Shown in pieces: positions 1,231-55,883 of a DNA stretch of 64,000 bases. Every line of letters begins with the position of its first letter. Position 1 is the first letter of the stretch. The stretch is from Aureispira anguillae (lineage in GTDB: Bacteria > Bacteroidota > Bacteroidia > Chitinophagales > Saprospiraceae): NCBI RefSeq assembly GCF_026000115.1, contig NZ_AP026867.1, positions 5,196,001 through 5,260,000 of the forward strand. The letters are read 5' to 3'. Below the pieces are notes generated by a model that worked only from the letters and a program-made list of their open reading frames with translations, made no database searches and had not been told where the DNA came from. A program made the translations under genes and the position numbers.

Positions 1231-2958
1231 ATGAATAAGCAAAAAATCATAGCCATTTACCAAGAAATGCTCGCCAGCATTCATAAGATAAAAAACAGTG
1301 GTCAACCGCTAACTGAAGGGCAAAAAATTCAATTAACTCAATTAGAAACAATTGCCAACCAACTCAAAAGCAAAGCGGAAGCTGCTGGTTTTGGAGAGGA
1401 ATTGGTTGCCGATCCTACGATTGCGGTTAATTCAGCCGATGATTTGTTCCAATTGATCGACACTTCTGTTTGCAGTGCTGACATTCGTCAAAAATTAGCC
1501 ACAGTTGTTGGCAAAAATTATGTCGCAGATGGGTTAAGTCGAAAAAAACTTTGGGATGCCTTACAAATTTTTGATAAATACTACATCGCCAATGTAGATA
1601 AGATTTCTGCCGTTACGGTAAATAGCAGAATGAAAGGAGAATGGGAAAAAATATTTGGAACGGATAAGTACGATTTACAATTATTGGCTACTGCTTATCA
1701 GAATTCTGCAAAAGAAGCACTCCTAAAAGAAATTGACCGCCTATCTCCCAACAACTGGGTTACTAAACCTGCCAACTTGGATCAGAGTTTTAAGGCTTTT
1801 TTTAAAGGTAAAAAATCATGGCTAGATTCTGCCAATGATATTGCTTATGCCGCAACTCAATTAAAAATTGATGCCTATGAATTTCCATTAATTCCCGATC
1901 GTTTTGATACCAAATATTTTAAATTTACCAATGGAAAAACTCAAGTTAGCGGTAAGTTGGCTTTTGGTAGCCCTGTCTTAATCAACAATCAGGAAAAAGC
2001 AATCAATGGCTTTTTGGTAGATTTTGAACAGGCCTTTCGATCAACTGTTAACCTAAAAGCGTTTAAAGGTGTCATGCCATCTATAGGTGGTGTATCAGGA
2101 ACTGCGTTGACCAAAGGCGCTACTCTTGACTTGGGTTATGTGACCTTTACCCTTAAAACAGATCTCGCTAAATATGGGCTGCAACCCACCAAAAAAGATG
2201 TTGATGAGCCTACTGACAACTTTTTTAGAAAAATTGCCAATCGAGGTAAATTTACAGCGGCATCTGTGCGTTTTCAAGGAACCATCAATTTAGCTAAGTT
2301 GATCAAAAAAACAGGTTTAGAACTTCCTTTAATTGATGTGCCAGTCTGCAATATCAGTGTTAGTTGTGGCTTTGATGTTTCTTTGGTTCCTATCAAGCCG
2401 AAGGTAAAAAATAATTCATCCAAGCAAAAAACTCCTGATGCAGATTTAGATCGACCTTCTATAGAGAACGATCAAAAAGCATTGAAAAAAATTCAAGCTA
2501 AAAACGATGATTTATTAAAAAGAGCTGACCAACTTTCTGATGCCATTGACAAACAGGATGTAGATGCTATGAAAAAAGCAGCTAATGAAGTCCAAGAAAC
2601 GGCAAAAGATGCTTATAAGCTACTAGAAAACCACGATTGGAAAGATAAGTCACTCAAGAACAAAGCGGCTGATTTGCTAGATCAGTCTGCTAAAAAAGTT
2701 TATAAAAAAATAGCGGGTCCTGTTGCGAAAATAACCAAGGCCTTAAACTATGCTAAGCCTTTGGCTCGATTGATGCCTGCCGTCAATGCAGTATTAACAA
2801 TTATCGAAGTGGGGACTTACATTTATGATTTTGCTGTCTGGTTTAATAGCATTGAGGCCAATACTTGGGAGGATTATTTTATTGCTTGGGGCAAAGACAT
2901 GAGTCAGGGTACTTTTGGGCAATGGTTCCGAAAAGTTGATACTTATTTAAAACAATAG
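1231..2958 (+). CDS. Uncharacterised multidomain protein, 575 aa, with late hydrophobic segment
   Basis: I do not recognise this family. Three parts can be seen: a helical N-terminus (about 1-170), a middle section with beta-rich stretches (about 210-390, including SVRFQGTINLAKL and DVPVCNISVSCGFDVSLVP), and a lysine-rich helical C-terminus. Near residues 510-545 is a hydrophobic stretch, MPAVNAVLTIIEVGTYIYDF, long enough for one membrane span. No signal peptide, lipobox or T9SS domain is present, so it is made in the cytoplasm. It lies 18 bp after the preceding unknown gene. A membrane-active or delivered protein is one speculative reading; nothing in the sequence proves it. Confidence 0.8.
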   Translation: MNKQKIIAIYQEMLASIHKIKNSGQPLTEGQKIQLTQLETIANQLKSKAEAAGFGEELVADPTIAVNSADDLFQLIDTSVCSADIRQKLATVVGKNYVADGLSRKKLWDALQIFDKYYIANVDKISAVTVNSRMKGEWEKIFGTDKYDLQLLATAYQNSAKEALLKEIDRLSPNNWVTKPANLDQSFKAFFKGKKSWLDSANDIAYAATQLKIDAYEFPLIPDRFDTKYFKFTNGKTQVSGKLAFGSPVLINNQEKAINGFLVDFEQAFRSTVNLKAFKGVMPSIGGVSGTALTKGATLDLGYVTFTLKTDLAKYGLQPTKKDVDEPTDNFFRKIANRGKFTAASVRFQGTINLAKLIKKTGLELPLIDVPVCNISVSCGFDVSLVPIKPKVKNNSSKQKTPDADLDRPSIENDQKALKKIQAKNDDLLKRADQLSDAIDKQDVDAMKKAANEVQETAKDAYKLLENHDWKDKSLKNKAADLLDQSAKKVYKKIAGPVAKITKALNYAKPLARLMPAVNAVLTIIEVGTYIYDFAVWFNSIEANTWEDYFIAWGKDMSQGTFGQWFRKVDTYLKQ

Positions 2959-3075
2959 TGGGACTATTATCAGGTGTTTTTGGATAAAAAATAGAAAATA
3001 GACTAGGATTGGAACTTAGCGCTTTGCAAAAGAGTTAAGAACATTGTCTAAAGACTAGATCAAAACTAAAACATC

Positions 3076-4479
3076 ATGAAAAAAGAAAAGCTCAGAGGAA
3101 AAGATTTGGCGGCAATTGGGTATACAGAGACTGAAATTCGAAGTTTAGCGATGTTATTGGTAGGCAAAGGTTATAAATACACCTCTAAAGCCGAAAAAAT
3201 AGCCATCCTTAAAGCGGTCATAAAAACACCCCATAATTATATTCAAGATAAAATTATGGGACCTGTTGCTATTAAATTAATTGACCAACAAGCCAAAGTA
3301 GCAACCTATACTTTTACAGACAAAACATTCCAGATTTATGGAGCAGATGGAATTGCCGAAAATGCAAAATCACAAATGCAACAGGCAATGCGTCTTCCCG
3401 TTTCGGTTAATGGAGCATTGATGCCTGATGCCCATCATGGTTATGGGTTGCCAATTGGAGGTGTTTTAGCCACTGAAAATGCCATTATTCCTTATGGTGT
3501 TGGCGTGGATATTGGCTGTAGAATGTGTTTGAGTATCTTTGATGCCAAAGAGAGTTATTTGGAGCAGAACAAATCTCAACTAAAAAAAATTATTCAAAAT
3601 AATTCTCGCTTTGGTCGGTCTACCTTTGAGGATAATAAAAGAGAGGATGCCATTTTTGATCGTCCTGAGTTTAGAGAGATTGGCTTAATTCGTTCTCTAC
3701 TGGACAAAGCTTATTCCCAAATCGGGTCTTCGGGAGGAGGCAATCATTTTGTAGAATTCGGTTTAGTAAAGATCAATGATATTAACAATGATTTAAATCT
3801 ACCTGTTGGTACTTACCTTGCTTTATTAACCCATTCTGGTTCTAGAGGTTTTGGCGCTAAAATAGCCAATACTTACACCAATATTGCTATAAAAAAACGA
3901 AATCTTCCAAAAGCTGTGGCTCACTTATCTTGGCTTTATATGAATGAGCAAGAAGGACAAGAATATTGGTTGGCAATGAATTTGGCAGGAGATTATGCTT
4001 CGGCTTGCCATCATCACATCCACCGAAGAGTCCAAAAAGCACTAGGGATAAAAGAACTGCGCAGAATAGAAAATCATCATAACTTTGCATGGAAAGAGCA
4101 GTTAAAAGATGGTCGTTCTGTTTATGTCCATCGCAAGGGAGCTACTCCTGCTCATCAAGGGCAATGGGGTATTATCCCAGGGTCTATGACTGCCCCTGCT
4201 TTTATTGTTAGAGGCTTGGGCAATAGTGCTTCTATTAATTCCGCAGCACATGGAGCAGGACGAGCATTTTCTAGACGAAAAGCAAAAGAATCTTTCACTA
4301 AAAAAATGCTTCGCAACGAATTAAAAAATAAACAGGTAGAACTAATTGGTGCAGGCTTAGACGAAGCTCCCTTTGCTTATAAGGATATTCATACGGTTAT
4401 GCAAGCACAACAAGATTTAGTTCAAGTTGTTGCGCCATTTTATCCTAAAATTGTACGAATGGACAGTGCAAAATCTTAA
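3076..4479 (+). CDS. rtcB: RNA-splicing ligase RtcB
   Basis: RtcB joins RNA 2',3'-cyclic phosphate or 3'-phosphate ends to 5'-OH ends using GTP and manganese, acting in RNA repair. The family motifs appear in order: PDAHHGYGLPIGGV, then GVGVDIGCRM with the metal-binding cysteine, SSGGGNHFVEFG, HSGSRGFG, NHHNFAW, and SAAHGAGR with the histidine (His392) expected to take the GMP. The length of 467 aa is normal. The 117-bp gap to the preceding unknown gene suggests its own promoter. Neither archease nor RtcA is nearby. The assignment is secure; the natural RNA substrate is unknown. Confidence 0.95.
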   Translation: MKKEKLRGKDLAAIGYTETEIRSLAMLLVGKGYKYTSKAEKIAILKAVIKTPHNYIQDKIMGPVAIKLIDQQAKVATYTFTDKTFQIYGADGIAENAKSQMQQAMRLPVSVNGALMPDAHHGYGLPIGGVLATENAIIPYGVGVDIGCRMCLSIFDAKESYLEQNKSQLKKIIQNNSRFGRSTFEDNKREDAIFDRPEFREIGLIRSLLDKAYSQIGSSGGGNHFVEFGLVKINDINNDLNLPVGTYLALLTHSGSRGFGAKIANTYTNIAIKKRNLPKAVAHLSWLYMNEQEGQEYWLAMNLAGDYASACHHHIHRRVQKALGIKELRRIENHHNFAWKEQLKDGRSVYVHRKGATPAHQGQWGIIPGSMTAPAFIVRGLGNSASINSAAHGAGRAFSRRKAKESFTKKMLRNELKNKQVELIGAGLDEAPFAYKDIHTVMQAQQDLVQVVAPFYPKIVRMDSAKS

Positions 4480-17920: not shown

Positions 17921-17983
17921 CATTACTCTGTTAAAAACCTGAAGGCTCACGCAGTAGCAACGCAGTTAATCAACGGAGTATTA
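17921..17983. mobile_element. Small non-autonomous element, family 1 (63 bp)
   Basis: The element begins CATTACTCTGTTAA and ends GGAGTATTA, the same ends as the copy at 8671-8816. Six identical bases flank it, TACTAG at 17915-17920 and 17984-17989, a clear target duplication. The left copy of the duplication contains the TAG stop codon of the rhodanese-like gene, so the insertion sits exactly at the end of that gene without changing the protein. The interior carries GGCTCACGCAGTA, also found inside the family-2 element at 43780. It has no ORF. Confidence 0.8.
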
Positions 17984-43779: not shown

Positions 43780-44042
43780 GGTTCTTTGACAACCCGTAGG
43801 CTCACGCAGTAACCACGCAGTAGCAGCGAAGCTAATTTTGTGAAATAGAAAACTATTTTGCCTGCTTATTACTACTTTTGTTATAAGTTATAGATAGTAA
43901 GTCGCTTGCTTAGTTCCTGTAAATACAGGACATACGACTTACTATCTATAATTTTCTTCTAAAAAAACAGTAGCAACGAAGCTAAAATAGTTGAAGGCTT
44001 ACCCTTTTTTAGCATTTACCACACGATTGAGTTCTCAAAGAG
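43780..44042. mobile_element. Non-autonomous element, family 2, right end decayed (~263 bp)
   Basis: The left end GGTTCTTTGACAA (43780-43792) and the body (TGCCTGCTTATTACTAC, then TTTTGTTATAAGT, the central hairpin, GAAGCTAAAATAG, and CACGATT) match the intact copy at 55413-55671. The right end is altered to GAGTTCTCAAAGAG, and no clean target duplication remains. Relative to the other copy it carries an extra GC-richer stretch near 43793-43835 containing GGCTCACGCAGTA and CAGCGAAGCTAA. It fills nearly the whole gap between the nitrilase stop and the esterase start, so the latter's 5' leader lies within it. No ORF. Confidence 0.75.
43888..43951. repeat. Central hairpin of the family-2 element, copy A
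   Basis: TTATAGATAGTAAGTCG (43888-43904) pairs perfectly over 17 bp with CGACTTACTATCTATAA (43935-43951). The 30-nt loop holds a second hairpin, TCCTGTA / TACAGGA. Compared with copy B at 55471-55536 both arms differ at the same five paired positions, and the loop is in the opposite orientation. Confidence 0.85.
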
Positions 44043-44047
44043 CGACT

Positions 44048-45022
44048 ATGAATACGACAAAATACATCACTAAAATGTTTGGGCTTATTTTTCTGATTGG
44101 AGGAAAAAGGCTCTTGGGTATAAAAAAACGAGCAGATTGGCCCCTAAAGACTGAACTATTATGGGCAACAACTAGATTGACGCTGTTATCCTCCAATAAA
44201 TATGGGCTTGCTTGGTTAAAAAATTTATCTAAGAGCTATAGCCCTAAACCTATTTTTGCCGAAAAAGTATCTATTGATGCGGTAGATAGTAAGGTTGGTT
44301 CTTATCTAAAAATTGCTCCTATTGCTAATGCACCACAAAAACTAATCATTTACTTTCATGGAGGAGGATATGTCACAGGGTCTCCAAAGGCAATCGTTGA
44401 ATTTAGTAGTCGATTGGCTTTAAAAACAGCCGCTTTAGTATTAACCCCTTTTTACCCAACTGCTCCCGAAAAGACCTACCCTGCTGCCCATCAATTTGCC
44501 AGTGCTTTTGTTCAGTATGTTTTAACCAAGTATCCCAATAGCACCCCATTTATCGCTGGTGATTCTGCTGGTGCAGCATTAGCACTTTCTGCCATCAAAA
44601 ATCTTAATTGTAGCCTTTCAAAAAGGCTTAAAGGCTGTATTTTAATTTCTCCTTGGGTTGATCCTCTCGCTCAAAAAGGTTCCATTCAATTCAATTCAAA
44701 AAATGATGTTGGCAACCGAGAATTTGTTGTTGCCTGTTACCATACTTATCTAAATGGTGCCATCCCTTTAGAAAAATATCCATTACGTTTTGATGCGCAA
44801 AATATTCCTTCTTTACCGCCTACCTTTATCAGTATAGGAGATACCGAAATTTTGCTGGATCAAACCAAAAAATTATCCGAAGACATCCAAACTCAGGGCA
44901 CTCAAACAACCACAATGGTTTACCAAGGAATGTTTCATACTTTTTGGAACATGGCTCCTAGATTAAAAGAAGCAGATCGCTTAATAGAAGATCTAGCGAA
45001 CTGGATGCATAAGAAAAACTAA
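44048..45022 (+). CDS. Alpha/beta hydrolase, hormone-sensitive-lipase-like esterase
   Basis: The HSL-family oxyanion motif is YFHGGGYVTGSP, the nucleophile elbow GDSAGAALALS, the acid lies in SIGDTEILLDQ and the histidine in YQGMFHTFW. The enzyme likely hydrolyses short- to medium-chain esters in the cytoplasm or at the membrane; a hydrophobic N-terminal stretch (KMFGLIFLIGG) may attach it. I choose ATG 44048 (324 aa). The frame is open from a TTG at 43991, but those 19 codons are mobile-element sequence. The next gene follows after 29 bp. Confidence 0.88.
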   Translation: MNTTKYITKMFGLIFLIGGKRLLGIKKRADWPLKTELLWATTRLTLLSSNKYGLAWLKNLSKSYSPKPIFAEKVSIDAVDSKVGSYLKIAPIANAPQKLIIYFHGGGYVTGSPKAIVEFSSRLALKTAALVLTPFYPTAPEKTYPAAHQFASAFVQYVLTKYPNSTPFIAGDSAGAALALSAIKNLNCSLSKRLKGCILISPWVDPLAQKGSIQFNSKNDVGNREFVVACYHTYLNGAIPLEKYPLRFDAQNIPSLPPTFISIGDTEILLDQTKKLSEDIQTQGTQTTTMVYQGMFHTFWNMAPRLKEADRLIEDLANWMHKKN

Positions 45023-54203: not shown

Positions 54204-55343
54204 TTACTCAATAACTACTTCCTTTTTCCATACTTCTACTCTCAAATCATCAATATAAATAGGAAAAGGCTGTTTGTTCCAAGGGTAAATTTTTAAACGA
54301 TCAGTAGGTTTTGCATTTTCGGGAATAGCTTGCCACATTTCTAAATTGATCCATTTTCCATAAGTTTGTTTCCCATCTTTGTACAATCTAGCATCAATTG
54401 GTAAGCCTCTCCAAAATCGTTGTTCATTTCCATGCCCTAGCGATACAACCATGCTAGCAGAACCAGCATATTTTCTTACTTTATGTTTCTTTAGTGCATA
54501 AAAAGAGACCTTGATATAGTCTCCAGCCTGCGCCCCTACTTCAGCAAGTGTTCCATCATAACCCCTTCCGTATTGGTGTTTTCCTGCTTGGCTAGAAAGC
54601 ACACAGGAAAAAAGACCACGAGCAGCCGTTTCTTTGGTTGTTTGAGGAGCTAAATCACTAGTTTCATAATTTTGTTCGAGTACACGATGACTCAAAATTA
54701 GCCCCTCCTCAGGAGCTAAAGGCTCTGTGGTCCATGTTTCTACTATAAAATCATCCAGATAAAGATCTCCCCCCATAGGGTTCCAATGATAAATTTTTAG
54801 GCGGTCTCCTTTTTCAATATTGTCTGGTGCCTCATACCACAAGGATAGATTTTCCCATTTGTCCACCAATTGTTTATTTTGCGACTCTAATAAATCATTA
54901 ATAGAGAAAGTAGTATAGTGCAATGTTGAATCACCTCTATGAAAACTAACAACCACAAATCCCTTTATATTCGCAGGTTTTCTTATCGCTTTAGCAGGTT
55001 TGAAACAATCAAAAGAAATATGATACCATTCTCCCTTTCTAACCTTATTCACAAAAGCATTAACACCAGGTCCGAAAGCTTTTTGATTCGTAAGTCTAAA
55101 ATGCATCCCAGAAGTGCCTTTTGTTTGGTACTCCTTACTATAATTTGCGGCATTAGCATTCCTAGGAACAGCATTATAATCATTTTCATACATCAAATAA
55201 TCAAAACGCACACCTTCAGGAGCAACAACTTCTTTCGGAAAAGTTACATTTTTATCTATTGCAGAATAATCAGAGCCACAGCTTTGAACAATAAGTAATG
55301 CAGCAACTATAAAAAAATATAAGCTTATCTGTTTCATTTTCAT
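54204..55343 (-). CDS. Lipoprotein with two tandem copies of a beta-sandwich domain
   Basis: The ATG at 55343 (or 55337, two codons later) gives MKMKQISLYFFIVAALLIVQ followed by SCGSDYSAID, a lipoprotein signal with Cys at the lipobox QSC. The frame is open upstream to 55517, but that part is mobile-element sequence. Two halves of about 170 residues are alike: both contain WINLEMW/WENLSLW, DRLKIYPWN/DRLKIYHWN and YIDDLRVEVW/YLDDFIVETW, suggesting tandem carbohydrate-binding-type jelly-roll domains. No catalytic motif is seen. The protein is probably surface or periplasm facing. The family is not one I can name. Confidence 0.8.
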   Translation of the reverse strand: MKMKQISLYFFIVAALLIVQSCGSDYSAIDKNVTFPKEVVAPEGVRFDYLMYENDYNAVPRNANAANYSKEYQTKGTSGMHFRLTNQKAFGPGVNAFVNKVRKGEWYHISFDCFKPAKAIRKPANIKGFVVVSFHRGDSTLHYTTFSINDLLESQNKQLVDKWENLSLWYEAPDNIEKGDRLKIYHWNPMGGDLYLDDFIVETWTTEPLAPEEGLILSHRVLEQNYETSDLAPQTTKETAARGLFSCVLSSQAGKHQYGRGYDGTLAEVGAQAGDYIKVSFYALKKHKVRKYAGSASMVVSLGHGNEQRFWRGLPIDARLYKDGKQTYGKWINLEMWQAIPENAKPTDRLKIYPWNKQPFPIYIDDLRVEVWKKEVVIE

Positions 55344-55412
55344 TCCATTAATTATTCCCATCAACTTGATAAAATTGATAAAGGTTAGGTAGGTATTTAG
55401 TGTACTAATTTT

Positions 55413-55671
55413 GGTTCTTTGACAAATTGTGTGAAATCGTAAACTACCTTGCCTGCTTATTACTACTTTTGTTATAAGTCCTAAGTCGTATGTCCTGTAT
55501 TTACAGGAACTAAGCATACGACTTAGGACTTATAACTTTCTACTAAACCACATAAACGTAGTGCACGAGCAGTTTGATATGGTGTACCAACAGGGATGCC
55601 TAGCAGCGAAGCTAAAAAGTAGTTAAAAGCTTACCTTTTTTAGTGTTTACCTCACGATTTGTCAAAGAACC
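55413..55671. mobile_element. Non-autonomous element, family 2, intact (259 bp)
   Basis: Both ends are visible: GGTTCTTTGACAAAT (55413-55427) and its exact complement ATTTGTCAAAGAACC (55657-55671), a perfect 15-bp terminal inverted repeat. Eight identical bases, CTAATTTT, flank it at 55405-55412 and 55672-55679. The end sequence (GGNTCTTTG...) and the 8-bp duplication resemble those described for the ISL3 family, so an ISL3-type transposase elsewhere may mobilise it. It has no ORF; it holds a large hairpin and the motif CAGCGAAGCTAA. The other copy in the window is at 43780-44042. Confidence 0.88.
55471..55536. repeat. Central hairpin of the family-2 element, copy B
   Basis: The 22-base arm at 55471-55492 (beginning GTTATAAGTCCTAAG) pairs perfectly with 55515-55536 (ending CTTAGGACTTATAAC). 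The 22-nt loop contains TCCTGTA / TACAGGA. The arms differ from copy A while remaining complementary, and the loop is reverse-complemented relative to copy A. Confidence 0.88.
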
Positions 55672-55883
55672 CTAATTTTTAAACATTTCATCCTCTACAA
55701 AGGTAATTATTATATTTAAATAGTGCCTAGTTCCCTCCTATCTAAATTAGCCTCTTATTATAAGAGTGCCCCTTTAATCTTTTATGGTACAAGTTGGCAT
55801 CTATTTTGAACAATCCCTAACAGACAATTTGTCCCCTTCTCCTTGCCCAATGCCTATATTTAGATCGCCTAATCCTTCTAATT

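Follow-up and report, generated by a model that had tools for sequence, protein, structure and literature searches.

Concerted arm changes and two loop orientations in the hairpins of putative ISL3-type MITEs of Aureispira anguillae

A window of 64,000 nucleotides, which is the whole stretch of DNA analysed here and part of the 7.79-Mb genome of Aureispira anguillae, contains two related hairpins (A and B) that carry different bases in a short block of one arm and the complements of these bases in the other. An earlier note on this DNA had set two explanations side by side, compensatory change that preserves a structure important as RNA or single-stranded DNA, or the replacement of whole hairpin arms. 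Covarying stems usually pass for the strongest evidence that sequence can give of a functional RNA, and the question raised by the locus is what kind of process changes both arms together. It is approached here through the elements that carry the hairpins and through the other copies in the genome.

Two hairpins within putative ISL3-type MITEs

Direct reading of the sequence confirmed both hairpins (Table 1). They had been described as perfect, which holds for B, where 22-bp arms without mismatch flank a 22-nt loop, but not for A, in which 20 paired positions are followed by two unpaired ones per side towards the loop, so that A is imperfect at its apex. Likewise, the five arm positions that were said to differ do so at four, the middle T being common to A and B, and for all four differing positions the opposite arms are indeed exactly complementary. 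Relative to the family consensus GGTCG the block has two paired changes in A and two in B. Compared with dinucleotide shuffles, the folds of the two strands reach z-scores of -7.8 and -8.5 for A and of -11.8 and -11.1 for B. Scans of the 64-kb window against Rfam (at gathering thresholds) and for tRNAs returned nothing.

Table 1. Positions in the window of the two elements, their hairpins and the target duplication of element B
Feature	Position	Strand	Details
Element A, putative ISL3-type MITE	43780..44044	+	left end GGTTCTTTGACAA; degenerate right end CTCAAAGAGCG
Hairpin A, 5' arm	43885..43904	+	variable block GATAG at 43893-43897; fold z -7.8 on +
Hairpin A, apex region	43905..43934	+	loop in orientation F (CTTAGTTCCTGTAAATACAGGA) with adjoining unpaired positions
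Hairpin A, 3' arm	43935..43954	+	CTATC at 43942-43946; from the fold
Element B, putative ISL3-type MITE	55413..55671	+	TIRs GGTTCTTTGACAAATTGTG / CACGATTTGTCAAAGAACC
8-bp target duplication CTAATTTT around element B	left 55405..55412, right 55672-55679		8/8 identical
Hairpin B, 5' arm	55471..55492	+	AGTCC at 55477-55481; one 7-nt unit below consensus length
Hairpin B, loop	55493..55514	+	orientation R, the reverse complement of the loop of hairpin A
Hairpin B, 3' arm	55515..55536	+	GGACT at 55526-55530; from the fold

Both hairpins lie inside members of a dispersed element family with many copies in the A. anguillae genome, whose ends read GGTTCTTTGACAA(ATYGTG) and whose length ranges from 131 to 435 bp in a set of 75 elements. 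Direct repeats of 8 bp that are identical at seven or more of the eight positions flank 56 of the 75 elements, compared with 4.5% in shuffled flanks; element A is bordered by the 8-mers ACGATGAA and ACTATGAA, which agree at 7/8 positions. Eight base pairs is the usual length of the target duplication for ISL3.

When public genomes were scanned for exact matches to the end sequence, 107 stretches were obtained, and among the 80 of these listed by title most come from uncultured Aureispira MAGs, followed by MAGs of other Saprospirales, Saprospiraceae and Chitinophagales and by a few others. Single exact matches in Segatella (L231) and in an actinobacterial MAG (L240) are possibly due to chance. 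In the Saprospiraceae MAG Tobar13m-G26 (locus L238, positions 2104-3358) two MITE-type ends 1,254 bp apart, with the 21-base end GTTCTTTGACAAATNGTGTGG on both sides at zero mismatches, flank two ORFs split by a stop codon, each of which, searched separately, matches PF01610 (DDE_Tnp_ISL3). Among 30 ISL3 loci from family genomes, related end pairs were found at two (L271 and L272) and no such pair at the remaining 28, and a target duplication is not evident at L238 or L271. The MITE-type ends around the transposase ORFs of L238 and the end pairs of L271 and L272 argue that A, B and their family are non-autonomous ISL3-type MITEs, apparently related to these elements by descent of their ends; membership was judged by ends and target duplications.

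The PF01610 profile matched in 23 of 199 family genomes and in none of nine genus genomes, that of A. anguillae included, with 4 of 14 controls positive. The MITEs were presumably spread by an ISL3 transposase that is not found in the A. anguillae genome today, and their present mobility is doubtful because the genus genomes gave no ISL3 transposase match. Two mechanically called ORFs extend into the elements, one on the minus strand (54204-55517) overlapping element B over 55413-55517 and one on the plus strand (43991-45022) overlapping element A over 43991-44044. The real starts of both probably lie outside the elements, for the latter at the in-frame ATG at 44048.

Concerted change of the arms and orientation of the loop

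With double counts removed, the A. anguillae genome contains at least 67 distinct copies of the hairpin type represented by A and B. They come from searches with both elements and with their motifs, the BLAST-type searches scoring 40 candidates each, and were required to have a recognisable loop and body; hairpins with a loop beyond recognition were left out, so the sample favours intact ones, and L095 and L104, whose body is unlike the motif, stand outside the 67. Pair counts refer to the 50 hairpins that can be aligned without gaps over 20 pairs with at most 4/20 broken, the other 17 of the 67 being excluded because more than 4/20 positions are unpaired in them, their arms differing in length or being otherwise unalignable. 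Over the 20 pairs 16 of the 50 hairpins are perfect.

Relative to the consensus, both arms are changed in 36 pair cells, of which 35 are complementary, whereas 2000 column shuffles, which ignore kinship, gave a mean of 12.7 and a maximum of 23 such cells. The covariation test that had been suggested for all collected copies thus bears out an excess of complementary two-arm changes. A separate count on 49 hairpins (45 distinct rows, with the copy that has a 23-nt loop left out) again gave 36 cells, where shuffles gave 9.2 and slid controls did not exceed 12. Weaker measures were raised too, though to a smaller degree: nine pairs were changed on two sides compared with 5.4 in shuffles, a number that was reached in 5 of 500 shuffles, and one slid control gave seven. 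Variation falls mostly in pairs 12-16 and 20, and divergence from the consensus is about 2% in the inner 5' arm and about 3% in the adjacent body.

The complementary double changes represent 11 distinct states only, so that common descent makes the cell counts too high, a small number of events being the probable source of many double-change cells. Nine cells share the change of pair 13 from C-G to A-T and seven that of pair 20 from T-A to A-T, and 4 of the 36 double cells come from L101, which has lost a 7-nt unit in both arms; unit shifts occur in L036 and L016 as well. One-arm changes make up 63 cells in the same 50 hairpins, with the 5' arm altered in 26 of them and the 3' arm in 37. Covariation is therefore genuine, yet complementarity is often lost. 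Arms that vary without keeping complementarity had been named in the earlier note as the observation that would speak against a structure under selection, and with 63 one-arm against 36 two-arm cells and 17 of 67 hairpins unalignable a strict structural constraint is not sustained.

The arms themselves are arrays of 7-nt units (GTTATAA GTTATAG GTCGTAA GTCGTAT), and it was observed that the arms of the first hairpin family (L001-L060) and those of a third family described below (L062-L267) resemble 7-nt arrays of the type GTNNNAA/GTNNTAA, with a unit lost or gained in several copies. A unit has been lost from the 5' arm in L016, L027, L119 and B, from the 3' arm in L038, L049 and L056 and from both arms in L101. 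Hairpin B can be derived from a GGTCC-type 5' arm by the loss of one unit together with a matching change of the 3' arm, and copies that show one of these two steps alone exist (L027 and L119 for one, L004, L040 and L091 for the other). The GATAG variant of A is also found in L009. Arms of mixed type occur in L035 (GGTTG with CTATC), L055 and L109, and these copies show that exchange between elements also contributes.

The loop of the first family is found in orientation F in 33 and in orientation R in 34 of the 67 hairpins. The two commonest loop variants each occur both ways (24 R and 26 F, 5 R and 4 F), so that at least two inversions are likely. Orientation was considered as a marker of ancestry and rejected, as it is independent of the similarity of the 5' flanks: nearest neighbours agree in orientation at a rate of 0.54, with 0.49 +/- 0.08 after shuffling (50 of 67 copies). 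Inversion of the loop is deduced from the comparison of copies within one strain. The inverted tract extends into the stem, as pair 2 turns with the loop: T-T at this pair is found with loop F only (10 copies) and A-A with loop R only (6 copies; Fisher p 1.2e-4), so that of the 17 copies mismatched here 16 turn with the loop, and L094 (G-A) is uninformative. Pair 6 is a less clean marker, with T-G accompanying F (3 copies) and C-A accompanying R (2 copies), but C-A accompanying F in L101, which misfits.

A second palindrome, of other sequence but within element ends as in A and B, has 13 copies in the same genome and a 13-nt apex that is oriented 7:6. Of the 338 cells in its first 26 pairs, 320 are paired, the broken ones being mostly those of L142 with its divergent outer 3' arm. 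Two-arm changes confined to a single copy comprise an extra base pair in L121, a change of T to G in L142 and another change in L141.

In a third family, which comes from related genomes, the arms are similarly long and the apex measures about 27 nt. Its loop lies one way in all 57 copies with recognisable arms. From 91 elements at the start, five from the A. anguillae genome and 17 that could not be oriented were left out, and among the remaining 69 lenient motifs placed 68 one way and one (L201) the opposite way; since such motifs are permissive and a number of the 69, including L201, represent another palindrome type, the figures for this family are based on the 57. One-arm changes are found in 63 cells and both-arm changes in 11 (53 of the 57 copies), and a change of AG to CC with its complement is present on both arms in four copies and on one arm in L089, L176 and L221. 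A family that does not flip and changes mainly on one arm indicates that the process is not uniform. Flipping is seen in the two families with a short apex (22 nt, largely self-paired, and 13 nt) and not in the family with the longer apex, which would suit a mechanism dependent on closely spaced arms, a suggestion that draws on three families from different genomes.

Template switching between the arms and its rivals

It is proposed that the hairpins probably undergo concerted evolution at the level of DNA, the arms being copied from one another by template switching and the loop being turned by a related switch. Each MITE has at its centre a palindrome built of near-heptad units and ending in a short apex, and when DNA is synthesised one arm would act as the template from which the other is made. 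A polymerase that switches template inside the hairpin or cruciform would thereby carry out quasipalindrome correction, and a related switch would invert the apex. According to this proposal the arms change in concert because one templates the other and the loop is found in either orientation because the apex is turned, and no RNA function would be needed. Template switching between short inverted repeats is reported to lead to arm homogenisation and spacer inversion (PMC8604942). Both effects are found here in the first and second families, the inversion as a difference between copies, and inversion is not seen in the third. We infer that template switching in replication does the copying, rather than another form of arm-to-arm exchange. 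Of the two alternatives of the earlier note, compensatory change for the sake of an RNA structure is unsupported by the evidence below, and the replacement of arms comes nearer, in the form of arm-to-arm copying with inversion.

Selection for a structured RNA or an mRNA hairpin that acts through stepwise compensatory substitutions could account for the strong covariation, for covarying base pairs as found in structured RNA families are present, but these are also expected from template switching. The very stable folds on both strands would fit a transcript too, and since all 51 hairpins examined in loci of 2.5 kb or more lie outside ORFs of at least 150 aa a position in non-coding RNA is possible. 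Such selection is nevertheless very unlikely. A strand conserved as RNA should accept G-U more readily than A-C, but the first family has 17 G-U and 17 A-C mismatches (34 in all, hence of limited power), the ratio is 16:18 when sorted by the strand of the loop, and it is 14:19 in the third family and 4:6 in the second. No G-U excess emerged on any strand definition tried, a strand-specific tolerance was found in none of the three hairpin families, and the structured-RNA reading was rejected on the G-U/A-C balance by element strand and by loop strand. Transversions make up 20 of the 35 complementary double changes by tally (e.g. C-G to A-T and T-A to A-T) and 5 of the 11 distinct states, and transversional double changes have no route through a G-U pair. 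The occurrence of both loop orientations, with bulges that shift to the opposite side on turning, the 63 one-arm changes, the 17 unalignable copies of 67 and the negative Rfam scan of the window (gathering thresholds) all count against an RNA as well. The surroundings show no clear bias in gene orientation, as simple ORF calls classified 47 of the 51 loci into 29 tandem, 10 divergent and 8 convergent, and a role as terminator or at gene ends was rejected for want of a convergent bias among these.

Pairing that is symmetric between the strands is well suited to DNA, which brings into consideration selection for a single-stranded or cruciform structure that serves mobility, as with REPINs and RAYT. 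In REPINs compensatory changes are reported to be common and are interpreted as selection on the hairpin (PMC3116915). For the present elements this is quite unlikely, since the Y1/RAYT profile PF01797 has no match in the A. anguillae genome (5 of 14 controls positive), on which ground a REP/RAYT reading was rejected. The ends and 8-bp duplications belong to the DDE type of element, some elements lack the hairpin although their ends can be recognised (L106, of 131 nt, and L092, L099 and L102, which belong to the second family), and the loop turns. The swapping of whole hairpins or single arms between copies by recombination, with A and B receiving their hairpins ready-made, would account for the mixed-type arms of L035, L109 and L055 and for the sharing of GATAG by A and L009, but as the main process it seems rather doubtful. 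It leaves the origin of the different perfect palindromes unexplained, it does not provide for two-arm changes that are unique to one copy (pair 13 of L015, pair 17 of L117, and L121 and L142), and it would not turn the loop unless the exchange passed through the inverted arms. A site-specific recombinase that inverts the apex in the manner of an inverton might account for the ratio of about 50:50 in both families of the A. anguillae genome and for the uniform orientation in the family of the related genomes. It is extremely improbable, however, as the segment between the arms is 22 or 13 nt only, the two families have no obvious apex sequence in common and the homogenisation of the arms would be left unexplained.

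An extension of template switching couples the flipping to the life cycle of the MITE, whereby each new copy would go through a hairpin or cruciform stage with random resolution, its orientation re-drawn and its palindrome re-perfected at every transposition. Such coupling is unlikely; if true, it would mean that the palindrome is kept by the element's own mode of copying and not by a host function.

Comparison with known repeats and mechanisms

The hairpins resemble the products of quasipalindrome correction or template switching (PMC8604942, PMC8794818) in the homogenisation of the arms, the clustering of changes and the inversion of the spacer. They differ in that dozens of copies of a bacterial repeat are involved and that the two loop orientations are about equally frequent. 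PMC8794818 also argues that RNA hairpins can arise and persist through the same mechanism, and reports that complete loop inversions are very rare in its rRNA data, unlike the equal orientations found here, where the loop is seemingly unconstrained. With REPINs (PMC3116915) the hairpins have in common that they are dispersed, extragenic and rich in compensatory changes, whereas target duplications are present here and a Y1/RAYT transposase match is lacking in the genome. The present case suggests that REPINs too merit a test for inversion.

Compared with known ISL3-derived MITEs, the elements are alike in their TIRs, which start with GGTTCTTTGACAA or a near variant and are common to the ISL3 elements L238, L271 and L272, and in their 8-bp target duplications, their length of 131-435 bp and their lack of a transposase. 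They differ in that an ISL3 transposase match is missing from the nine genus genomes and that their interior is modular, with central palindromes that are varied or missing. Cardinium belongs to the Bacteroidota. Its MITECca01 (PMC9769881) is likewise a MITE of about 240 bp in a Bacteroidota genome, but it is derived from IS982 and intact parental elements are present.

Among the matches listed, which were limited to open-licence literature, no description of these elements or of loop inversion in bacterial MITEs was found; the mechanism proposed for them, template switching, is already known. A repeat family with dozens of copies that passes a covariation test, fails a strand test and carries its loop both ways is a warning for the covariation-based discovery of non-coding RNA. 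The same copies offer a natural data set in which template switching in bacteria can be measured, and they add to the genus Aureispira a MITE family with ISL3-type ends.

Recognisable ends without a central palindrome were observed at L092, L099, L102, L106, L113 and L128; here the palindrome may be a removable module or may have been deleted. A further module of approximately CCCGTAGGCTCACGCAGTAACCACGCAGTAGCAGCGAAGCTAAT, or parts and relatives of it, occurs in the window at 43793-43836 and at loci such as L003, L036, L043, L058 and L123. It follows directly inwards of the 13 bases with which the element end begins, at one side of the element or at both, which gives the elements a nested look, and a copy of the GGCTCACGCAGTAGCAACGCAG module lies apart from elements A and B at 17931-17966 of the window.
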